From Bacteroidota bacterium (GTDB lineage: Bacteria > Bacteroidota > Bacteroidia > B-17B0 > Aurantibacillaceae), in assembly GCA_947450025.1 (NCBI GenBank), contig CANFTW010000006.1:1-64000 (forward strand): 64,000 nt of DNA, in the 5' to 3' direction. The notes below the pieces were generated by a model, which worked only from the letters and a program-made list of their open reading frames with translations, did no database searches and had not been told where the DNA came from. Shown here one piece after another: positions 18,259 to 28,035 of the stretch (position 1 is its first letter; each line of letters begins with the position of its first letter). Made by a program: the position numbers and the translations under genes.

Positions 18259-18651
18259 TTAATTTTTTTTGATATCTGAAAAACTCATTTTAGTGATGCT
18301 ATCTATTAATTGAAGCATACTTTTTTCAATCGTTACATATTCTAATTCTTCGTTACTTAAACAAATAAACATCAAGTCTATTTTTTGAGTTTGCAATGAT
18401 TCGTATAGTGTGTGTTTATTTAAACGATACACTTCTCTCATGCGACGTTTAATGTCATTTCGTTTGTTGGCACGTTTATGCTTCTTCTTGGGCACTACAA
18501 ACATCACTCTTACCGGAAAGGGACTTTCAAATTCTGTTTTTTTATAAATTAATTTGAAAGGGAATTGAGTTTTAGATTTGCCATTAGCAAATAAATCATC
18601 AATAGCTTTTTTGCTACATAAACGTTCTATTTTAGAAAATGTAAAATCCAT
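18259..18651 (-). CDS. rnpA: Ribonuclease P protein component
   Basis: Protein subunit of RNase P, which matures tRNA 5' ends with the RNA subunit. 130 residues. The N-terminal FSKIERLCSKKAIDDLFANGKS, then PVRVMFVVPKKKHKRANKRNDIKRRMREVYR carries the conserved RNR-type basic helix. It is not next to rpmH or yidC here. Lies upstream on the same strand as nothing else close: the hemD terminator separates it from hemD. Confidence 0.95.
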   Translation of the reverse strand: MDFTFSKIERLCSKKAIDDLFANGKSKTQFPFKLIYKKTEFESPFPVRVMFVVPKKKHKRANKRNDIKRRMREVYRLNKHTLYESLQTQKIDLMFICLSNEELEYVTIEKSMLQLIDSITKMSFSDIKKN

Positions 18652-18754: not shown

Positions 18755-19984
18755 TTATCGCTTATTAGCTTCTTTTATATATTCATCTAATGCTCCAGAC
18801 ATACTAGGATTCTTAGGATTAGGAGCGTATATGTCTAAACGGTAACCGTGTTTTTTTAACGTATTGGCTGTTGCTGCCCCAAAGCAGGCGATACGGGTAT
18901 TTCCTTGTTTAAAATTTGGAAAATTATGCTTTAATGAATTGATTCCTGCAGGTGTAAAAAATACCAAAGCATCAAATTCATTTAAATTTTTAATATCTGA
19001 TAAATCAGCACTTACTGTTCTATACATGATAGCTTTTGCATATTTAATAGAGATTGCATCTAAAAAATCACATATTTGCTCTTTTTGAACATCAGCTGCA
19101 GGTAATAAAAATTTCTCTTCTCTGTTTTTTCTAATAACATCAACTAAATCTTGAATGGTTTGATGTCCAAAGAATATTTTTCGTTTACGGTATTGAATAT
19201 ATTTCTGCAAGTAATAAGCAGTTGCTTCGTTTATACAAAAGTATTTCATTGATTCGGGAACAGTCACGCGCATTTCGTTACACATTCTAAAATAATGATC
19301 CACTGCCATTCTGCTAGTTAAAATTACAGCTTTGTGTTCTAATATATCAATGCGTTGGGTTCTAAAATCTTTAACAGGTAAACCTTCAATTTTTATAAAT
19401 TGACGAAATGTTTCAATCAGATTATATTTCTTAGCTAAATCATAATACGGATTCTTATCGGTTTCTGGTTTAGGTTGAGAAATTAAGATTGTTTTTATTT
19501 TATGCTTAGGATAATTAGAAACCTCTATGATTGGTTGAGGCGCCACTGCCACTAATTGTTTTTTTGTTTTAACACCAATTTTTACAAATTTTTCTGTGCT
19601 AGTTACGGCTTCTATTTTTGGAGCAGGAGTTGATTTTACTTTAGCTTCAATTTTAGGATTAACAACTACAGGTGCTTGTTTAGTAAGTTTTTTTACGACT
19701 GACTTTTTTATAACAACTTTTTTAGCCACTGTTTTTTTAGCCACAACCTTTTTTAATGCTGTTTTTTTAGCAATTGGTTTTACTGCTAATTTCTTAGTAG
19801 GCGCTTTTTTGATGATTTTTTTAATCGCTGGCTTTTTTGAAACAACCTTTTTAACTGCTTTTTTAGCAGGACTCTTTTTAGCAATCTTTTTAACTACGGT
19901 TTTTTTAGCTGTAGCCTTTTTTACTTTTTTAGTGTTTGCTTTTACAGTAGGTGATTTAATAGATTTTTTTTTCTTGATAGCCAT
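18755..19984 (-). CDS. hemD: Uroporphyrinogen-III synthase with histone-like Lys/Ala N-terminal extension
   Basis: The C-terminal ~245 residues (HKIKTILISQPKPETDKNPY ... FRTQRIDILEHKAVILTSRMAVDHYF ... LVFFTPAGINSLKHNF) are the Bacteroidota form of HemD, which cyclises hydroxymethylbilane in haem synthesis. In front lie ~150 residues of K/A/V/P repeats (AKKSPAKKAVKKVVSKKPAIKK...), a histone H1-like tail. I chose the ATG at 19984 (MAIKKKKS); an ATG 12 bp upstream (19996) is also possible. DUF4271 lies just upstream on the same strand, the known arrangement. hemE is 20 kb away in this window. No frameshift is seen between tail and enzyme. Confidence 0.88.
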   Translation of the reverse strand: MAIKKKKSIKSPTVKANTKKVKKATAKKTVVKKIAKKSPAKKAVKKVVSKKPAIKKIIKKAPTKKLAVKPIAKKTALKKVVAKKTVAKKVVIKKSVVKKLTKQAPVVVNPKIEAKVKSTPAPKIEAVTSTEKFVKIGVKTKKQLVAVAPQPIIEVSNYPKHKIKTILISQPKPETDKNPYYDLAKKYNLIETFRQFIKIEGLPVKDFRTQRIDILEHKAVILTSRMAVDHYFRMCNEMRVTVPESMKYFCINEATAYYLQKYIQYRKRKIFFGHQTIQDLVDVIRKNREEKFLLPAADVQKEQICDFLDAISIKYAKAIMYRTVSADLSDIKNLNEFDALVFFTPAGINSLKHNFPNFKQGNTRIACFGAATANTLKKHGYRLDIYAPNPKNPSMSGALDEYIKEANKR

Positions 19985-19999
19985 ATTAAAAATCAATGC

Positions 20000-20776
20000 T
20001 TAAAAATTAACTAATAGAAACTTTATCAAAACTAATAATGGTAGAATTTCTAAGGCACAAAGGTATAAAAAAATATACAAAATTCCTATGTTTTGTTCAG
20101 TTGTTGAAAGGACGAAGACTCTAAACATTCTGAGGGCATAAAAACCTGCGCAAATAACCAGTGCAGGGTATAAAAACCATTCGCTAGGATAGGTTGTGTA
20201 TTGAAGACACACGATAAAAGGGAATAAAATGATGCCAATTGTTTGACCAAAAACAAAAACTGTATAAAGGTATTCTTTGCCTAAATCGTTATCAGATATA
20301 ATGTAAGCTAGTATAGAATTGGCTACAAATTTTATTAAATACATTACAACAATAATTCCTACAAAAAACATATACTGTTTTAAAAGAGGGGCATTTAGTA
20401 ATATTAATCCAAAATATTCATTGGTTTTTTGAATTAAAAAAGCCATTACTAAAATAAAACCAATGCCCAGTAATAAAGACATTCTTTTGGTAAGCTTGAA
20501 TTCTTCTCTGAAAAGTTGTTTTGCTTCTTGAATACTGAAAACAGACACGAAAATGCGTAAAATTTTTTTTGGCTCCGAAATTCTAATTAAAACATATATA
20601 GATAATGTTAAGAATAATAAAATTCCTGGCCAATAGGATGTTTTTGCTCCATTAAACATAGGAGTGGGGTGAATTATTTTTAAGGAATGACCAGAAAATA
20701 AAGAGGCGCGCTCTAAAGTATCTCTTTGAGCAAGTGAATCAGTTTTGATATGTAAAATAGAGTCTTGTTTACCCAC
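20000..20776 (-). CDS. DUF4271 family membrane protein
   Basis: A 258-residue integral membrane protein with about seven hydrophobic segments (ILLFLTLSIYVLIRI, LLGIGFILVMAFLI, YMFFVGIIVVMYLIKF, YLYTVFVFGQTIGIILFPFIV, FLYPALVICAGFYAL and IGILYIFLYLCALEILPLLVLI). DUF4271 proteins are found beside hemD in Bacteroidota; function unknown. Ends 15 bp before the hemD start, so the two are co-transcribed. Confidence 0.88.
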   Translation of the reverse strand: MGKQDSILHIKTDSLAQRDTLERASLFSGHSLKIIHPTPMFNGAKTSYWPGILLFLTLSIYVLIRISEPKKILRIFVSVFSIQEAKQLFREEFKLTKRMSLLLGIGFILVMAFLIQKTNEYFGLILLNAPLLKQYMFFVGIIVVMYLIKFVANSILAYIISDNDLGKEYLYTVFVFGQTIGIILFPFIVCLQYTTYPSEWFLYPALVICAGFYALRMFRVFVLSTTEQNIGILYIFLYLCALEILPLLVLIKFLLVNF

Positions 20777-27846: not shown

Positions 27847-28035
27847 ATGGCAACAACTAAAAAAGCAGCTCCTAAAAAAGCAGTAAAAAAAGCAGCTCCT
27901 AAAAAAGCAGCAGCTAAAAAAGCAGTAAAAAAAGCAGCTCCTAAAAAAGCAGCTAAAAAAGCAGTAAAAAAAGCAGCTCCTAAAAAAGCGGTTAAAAAAG
28001 CAGCTCCTAAAAAAGCAGCAGCTAAGAAAAAGTAA
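27847..28035 (+). CDS. Histone H1-like Lys/Ala/Pro-rich protein
   Basis: A 62-residue protein composed almost only of Lys, Ala, Pro and Val in AAPKKA(A/V)KK repeats after MATTKKAAPKK. Such proteins bind DNA non-specifically in Bacteroidota and Chlamydia and probably help compact the nucleoid. The high repeat identity (AAAAAAGCAG units) makes length changes by slippage likely. The ATG is preceded by AACAAAAAACC, without Shine-Dalgarno, and a strong terminator follows the stop. Confidence 0.85.
   Translation: MATTKKAAPKKAVKKAAPKKAAAKKAVKKAAPKKAAKKAVKKAAPKKAVKKAAPKKAAAKKK

Follow-up and report, generated by a model that had tools for sequence, protein, structure and literature searches.

The HEM4 gene at positions 18755–19984 of the window, the 64,000-nucleotide stretch of Bacteroidota DNA analyzed here, encodes a protein with a long lysine-rich tail ahead of a HemD-like core. 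With somewhat better than even confidence we read it as a Bacteroidia-specific HEM4 paralogue distinct from the HemD of the haem pathway, in which an electrostatic tail would hold the protein near nucleic acid or another polyanion. The presence of this HEM4 type across the class is independent of haem synthesis, and similar tails have been attached to it and to other proteins in related genomes.

Results and Discussion

The gene and its surroundings contain the following features:

18755..19984, minus strand: whole coding sequence of the HEM4-family protein with N-terminal polycationic tail, 409 aa (open reading frame and PF02602 profile match)
19661..19984, minus strand: K/A/V/P-rich tail proper, residues 1–108, boundary drawn by eye (composition; Lys-rich extension in 36/36 family sequences)
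19505..19660, minus strand: linker, residues 109–160, the last ~30 residues conserved in the genus
18758..19504, minus strand: HEM4 (HemD-fold) core, residues 161–409 (PF02602, predicted structure)
19178..19192, minus strand: YRKRK motif, residues 265–269, with R266–K269 98–100% conserved in the window type
19022..19024, minus strand: Tyr321, common to 13/13 ordinary HEM4 rows
20000..20776, minus strand: DUF4271, predicted all-helical protein directly upstream, conserved partner gene (Pfam, synteny, model)
18259..18651, minus strand: rnpA, RNase P protein, downstream (Pfam, synteny)
27847..28035, plus strand: stand-alone 62-aa K/A-rich H1-like open reading frame, context only (ORF list, composition)

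A probably translated, lysine-rich extension

A Lys/Ala-rich tail ahead of a complete HEM4 domain had been described in a sequence-only reading of this DNA, and the ORF list and translation bear this out, with an ATG start at 19984 and a stop at 18755 of the minus strand. The tail had been given as about 150 residues of K/A/V/P repeats; the extension is real, but tail and linker together comprise 160 aa and are not K/A repeat throughout. The composition of residues 1–160 is K52 V25 A20 I13 P12 T12 with four Glu and neither Arg nor Asp, and their net charge is +48, that of the core being +12. When the window's 50 open frames that reach 160 aa or more were ranked by the lysines in their best 160-aa stretch, the HEM4 frame came first with 53, followed by frames with 35 and 25, showing that the Lys richness of its tail is above chance. 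With a long, K/A/P-rich terminal segment of low complexity and high positive charge the protein has the characters of an H1-like tail, and the profile PF07382 (histone H1-like HC2) matches the tail with E = 6.9e-6 and 26.7 bits, which is below the Pfam cut-off of 40. At the DNA level repetition in the tail is weak, with two short arrays at 19702–19771. The resemblance to the H1-like protein at 27.8 kb that had been pointed out is found in composition and goes no further (E = 0.05 against the 62-aa frame), and the idea that the tail was copied from this gene was rejected since only composition is in common. The 62-aa frame itself consists nearly entirely of KKAAPKKAV-type repeats and forms a tandem repeat at the DNA level.

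Translation from below the tail was considered and rejected. The window gene contains no ATG between its start and its core; the only candidates there are GTG codons, at 80, 85, 144 and 146 codons past the start. An ATG is likewise missing from this region in 32 of 35 family sequences. A start near the HKIKTI sequence had been named earlier as the case against the tail; no candidate ATG was found there, and a start below the tail in the window gene is unlikely. In five out of seven close pairs it is the third codon position of the tail that changes most (e.g. L001/L002: 44, 29, 73), although these codon alignments follow the protein alignment, which itself favours a third-position excess; the remaining two pairs have few tail changes and no such excess. 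As far as sequence can tell, the tail thus appears to be translated.

In the window family (f1) 83 of 87 genomes match the protein, the match in G106 covering the tail part only. A Lys-rich extension precedes the core in all 36 f1 sequences in which the N-terminal region is present (L001–L027, L029–L036 and L050, with L003 cut by a contig end). A comparison of tail length among relatives, as had been proposed, gave 83–175 aa for the 35 complete f1 sequences, counted from their first ATG, and most of the inspected tails contain 19–35% Lys and few acidic or Arg residues. For the other f1 members we have frame length alone, namely open frames of 311–408 aa, fragments aside, compared to 249 aa for the core. 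Residue changes accumulate much faster in the tail than in the core, and within the extension the family alignment shows the highest conservation in the linker adjoining the core, with the consensus EKxVKxGVKTKKQLVxVxPQPVIEVSNxPK in the genus. Thirteen loci from other families in the class were without a long N-terminal Lys-rich tail (one of them, L037, has a C-terminal tail); long open frames at L038, L142, L143, L145 and L197 were rejected as tails as the upstream frames are almost without Lys.

The HEM4 core

PF02602 (HEM4) matches residues 209–395 with E = 3.8e-31 and 108.4 bits against a cut-off of 27.5, and the core is predicted with a pLDDT of 93.3 to adopt the two-domain HemD fold. Foldseek returned 13 matches with E ≤ 0.001, all of them HemD or uroporphyrinogen-III synthase (1jr2 with E = 1.7e-13), and VIA-align superimposed the core model on 1wcx with Z 17.2 and an rmsd of 7.2 over 236 aligned residues. 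A sequence search of solved structures gave no match for the core, and for the tail it matched SigA chains alone (8dy7, E = 0.42). The residues Y321, T323, S224, P345, G369 and T372 are common to the core and ordinary HemD, and we take Tyr321 to be the probable equivalent of the HemD active-site Tyr. The core also has near-invariant positions of its own, chief among them R266–K269 of the YRKRK motif, and RKR occurs neither in the 13 ordinary HEM4 rows nor in 22 HemC-fused HemDs, two rows being in both sets. Core charge was also considered as a mark of the paralogue, with +9.0 in tail-less window-type rows (n = 71) versus +1.3 in ordinary HEM4 rows (n = 13), and was rejected: it is distinctive against the 13 mixed rows but not against the HemC-fused HemDs from 22 relatives, whose mean is +8.8. 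Given the HemD fold and the retained motif residues, binding of a tetrapyrrole or a residual synthase activity is possible.

The gene could accordingly be a genuine, possibly duplicate uroporphyrinogen-III synthase serving siroheme or cobalamin, with a tail that affects solubility or placement alone. The Pfam match far over the cut-off, a core charge similar to that of HemC-fused HemDs and the common fold and motif residues including Y321 would all suit such an enzyme, but its distribution does not. The window type is kept in all 86 HemC-less genomes among 246 Bacteroidia (at least 95% complete), and the nine HemC-less genomes from outside the family in our set of 60 relatives also lack HemB; where HemB and HemC are both absent, no substrate for a synthase is expected. 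We therefore regard a synthase role as improbable.

A second HEM4 and independence from haem genes

The genome of the window carries two HEM4 genes, the window copy on contig C6 and a HemC–HemD fusion at C3:155242–156783, which adjoins HemB at C3:157526–158473; the two HEM4 proteins are 25% identical. All 60 relatives have HEM4, while HemC and HemB are each found in 49 and the same 11 genomes lack both, namely two family MAGs (84% and 92% complete) and the nine genomes of other families (91–100%), all nine with the window type. At least two HEM4 genes are present in 46 of the 49 HemC-positive relatives, the three exceptions being MAGs of 78–92% completeness. Among the 246 Bacteroidia, the same genomes being used for both searches, 244 carry the window type (the weakest best match having E = 1.9e-34) and 160 carry HemC, and both genomes without the window type have HemC. 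Bacteroides ihuae, a named control, has HEM4 and neither HemC nor HemB, and HemB was absent in five of 12 genomes of a further check. Thus, the co-occurrence with HemB and HemC that is expected of a pathway HemD was not observed, and the window type is a paralogue of the whole class, present independently of haem synthesis. As it is kept in all 86 HemC-less Bacteroidia of this set and a second HEM4 lies in the HemC fusion, the window gene probably does not encode the uroporphyrinogen-III synthase of the pathway. Of the earlier assignment to HemD the complete HEM4 domain stands, while the role as haem enzyme would more probably fall to the HemC–HemD fusion beside HemB.

Further HEM4 genes were seen in some relatives: G005, G006 and G026 have a third, stand-alone one (L081, L082 and L083) in addition to the fused HemD and the window-type gene, and G038, where neither HemB nor HemC was found, has a second, divergent one (L088) which may be a remnant or another paralogue.

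Across the phylum (n = 118) 30 Bacteroidia match the window type at E ≤ 3e-68, seven genomes outside the class match weakly (22–27% identity), like ordinary HemD, and 81 have no match, with the 20 of these that were listed all lying outside the class. In a HEM4 tree thinned from 141 to 110 rows by removal of near-copies, 97 window-type rows are separated from 13 ordinary rows with an SH-aLRT of 97, the ordinary rows forming long branches; the loci from Tannerellaceae and Bacteroidaceae that this tree contains belong to the window type. When both paralogues were compared like for like with their G000 counterparts, identity was higher for the window type than for the HemC-fused HemD in 18 of 22 genomes. 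Within the genus (seven genomes) both are about equally conserved, with 77–96% versus 79–99%, and in all 15 genomes outside the genus the window type is higher, with 49–84% versus 28–60%. A first comparison (10/10 genomes, 46–94% versus 21–61%) was dropped as unfair because eight of the ten comparators were stand-alone HEM4 genes. NCBIfam synthase models score the window protein at 36.6 bits with a cut-off of 275 and reach 40–46 bits in one each of Parabacteroides, Bacteroides and Sphingobacterium; since the HemC-fused HemD of the own genome falls short too (at most 63.3 bits, cut-off 365), these models do not separate the two paralogues.

One report credits the haem auxotroph P. gingivalis with HemD as one of four remaining haem genes (PMC13227078). 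In a P. gingivalis ppGpp-null mutant, another gives a 1.90-fold increase for the ‘uroporphyrinogen-III synthase’ PGN_0310, together with an increase of many ribosomal-protein and tRNA genes and a decrease of haem-acquisition genes (PMC6994654). PGN_0310 would be of the window type.

Conserved neighbours

On the minus strand of the window DUF4271, HEM4 and rnpA follow one another in this order, and purE runs towards rnpA from the plus strand. Every one of the 78 named loci with room for it has a co-oriented DUF4271 gene upstream of HEM4. A downstream rnpA shares the HEM4 strand in 52 of 75 loci and lies on the opposite strand in eight; in the remaining 15 none was found. The DUF4271 model is all-helical (pLDDT 91) and gave no significant match in the PDB, the best VIA-align hit having Z 4.5 and an rmsd of 3.8 over 108 aligned residues. 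Near its C-terminus DUF4271 has invariant Y, C and E residues and a near-invariant P. A literature search on DUF4271 returned two matches, both animal-related by title.

These neighbours bear on two further readings. The paralogue may bind porphyrin or haem, as a sensor, a chaperone or in trafficking together with DUF4271, and use the tail as an anchor. Such a role would draw on the retained HemD fold and motif residues, on a constant all-helical neighbour with its conserved Y, C, E and P, and on carriers without HemB and HemC, which presumably import haem. Yet the window type is equally present in haem makers, DUF4271 has no significant structural match, and in ppGpp0 cells of P. gingivalis PGN_0310 tracks translation genes and not haem acquisition (PMC6994654), so that we consider haem binding unlikely. 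The other reading sees a class-wide core factor unrelated to haem, which would work with the membrane protein DUF4271 and in RNA processing, ribosome production or the nucleoid, functions proposed because the gene adjoins rnpA; the tails would then strengthen its hold on nucleic acid and perhaps link the membrane to nucleoid or RNA. This we put forward as a tentative idea of rather low probability.

Repeated gain of tails on HEM4

Beyond f1, N-terminal tails are found in the genus g36 of family f27 (L132 + L190, L140 + L189, L191, L192), where the tailed HEM4 has a probable TTG start; another f27 genome (L198) has a HEM4 without tail. Among the matches listed, out of the 244 genomes with the window type, C-terminal tails occur in f43 (130–145 aa), in f28 (118–205 aa) and in f6 and its relative L126 (67–89 aa), and there is a short one in f9 (37 aa) and a weak one in L165. 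The loci L186–L200 were picked mainly for long frames, and the tail rate among them is not a frequency. All four f28 genomes with a tailed HEM4 are without HemB, and none of them was in the HemC-positive set. A tree was built from 108 cores (thinned from 129) with the tail columns left out; on it tail presence requires at least six changes, two for N-terminal and four for C-terminal tails, while fewer gains are forced by the well-supported branches taken by themselves (least forced: none 2, N 1, C 2). By their location N- and C-terminal tails are separate gains by nature. None of the 23 HemC-fused HemDs (22 relatives and the own genome) has a Lys-rich end, and they stop 6–23 aa past the HEM4 match. 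Judged from these sequences, the polycationic tail is an appendage that has arisen convergently, several times on window-type HEM4, and has been reused.

It had also been suggested that the tail is an expanded repeat. As a full account this is unlikely because the tail is family-wide, its DNA is only weakly repetitive and gain was repeated at both termini. More generally, the tail could be a non-adaptive low-complexity expansion of a kind that AT-rich genomes of the clade would acquire on many proteins, tolerated as both HEM4 termini are free. Its fast drift, with a different residue at 57 of 157 aligned codons in L001/L002, and the occurrence of tails on functionally unrelated proteins would be expected then. 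The retention of the tail in every inspected family sequence, in most of them lysine-rich with few acidic or Arg residues, the conserved linker, the third-position changes in most close pairs and the recurrent gain on the window-type paralogue with none on fused HemDs speak against it, and we think that a purely non-adaptive origin is doubtful.

Tails on other proteins

The adenylate kinase of the own genome (L068:601–1767, contig C6 at ~88.7–89.9 kb) has a K/A-rich C-terminal tail of ~150 aa. In f1 the Adk frame has at least 308 aa in 33 of 37 genomes, the others being two g3 genomes with 195–199 aa, one fragment and one genome without match. Among 23 genomes outside f1 an Adk tail was found in G041 and G056; G043, G044 and G048 have long Adk frames without a tail match, and G054 has no Adk match. 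We also read the frames of 15 further chosen tail-like matches, taken from f1 and from two genomes outside it. Histone-like K/A tails are present on DksA/TraR-like proteins (L201, L202, L205, L213), topoisomerase I (TopA; L206, L207, L212), SWIB (L208), NUMOD4-HNH (L203, L204), VOC/glyoxalase (L209, L210), aconitase (L214) and peroxiredoxin (L215), and L211 is a stand-alone H1-like protein; the Pfam names of the tailed proteins rest on nine proteins, Adk included. Since nucleic-acid proteins and metabolic enzymes carry tails alike, the tail can be seen as a reusable appendage, and we rejected it as proof of a nucleic-acid role because Adk, aconitase, VOC and peroxiredoxin are tailed as well. 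Strong HC2 matches at C4:76.7–78.2k were rejected as an H1-like tail, as they belong to an EKLAQEKA repeat protein; this protein (L070, own genome) has ~800 aa or more with a long repeat of this type.

Proposed mode of action and related systems

In the polyanion-tether model that we prefer, a HEM4 core with HemD fold, several HemD motif residues and its own near-invariant YRKRK would be made from a gene right after that of the membrane-type DUF4271, and the disordered +48 tail would, by non-specific electrostatic attraction, hold the protein at nucleic acid (the nucleoid or RNA) or at polyphosphate. Tethering would raise the local concentration of the HEM4 protein at the polyanion, and the core itself might, more speculatively, serve a polyanionic partner; tails of this kind are reused on other proteins in related genomes. 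A polyanion tether appears the most plausible use of the tail.

The window type resembles HemD (PF02602; PDB 1jr2, 3mw8, 1wcx) in fold, six motif residues and the core charge of the HemC-fused HemDs, and differs from it as a second copy that is kept without HemB and HemC, is linked to DUF4271 and rnpA, and has YRKRK and tails. AlgP of Pseudomonas aeruginosa has a histone H1-like KPAA tail and takes part in the organisation of polyphosphate granules, and removal of AlgP or its tail domain disturbs granule spacing (PMC9239181). DNA, RNA and polyphosphate are thus equally possible partners. Both proteins have a long, disordered K/A/P tail, but the window protein has a different partner domain, an N-terminal tail with few perfect repeats and is known here from its sequence. 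HC2 and other bacterial H1-like nucleoproteins (PF07382, NF038053) are similar in composition with weak profile matches, whereas the window tail is below both curated cut-offs and fused to a folded enzyme-like domain. The HU protein HupS of Streptomyces, which reportedly has a lysine-rich tail, and SigA (8dy7) are likewise folded proteins with a K/A-rich terminal appendage; these carriers are DNA or RNA-polymerase proteins, whereas the carrier here is a HEM4 paralogue. A literature search, with most subscription journals outside its reach, found no paper on the HEM4 paralogue or these tails.

Conclusion

If our reading is correct, a gene that is routinely counted towards haem biosynthesis in Bacteroidia is something else, and reconstructions that use it would be wrong. 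The repeated gain of tails at either end of the protein would offer a natural experiment on tail function, with tailed and tail-less pairs, and a census of K/A-tailed proteins in Bacteroidia could show which kinds of protein receive them.
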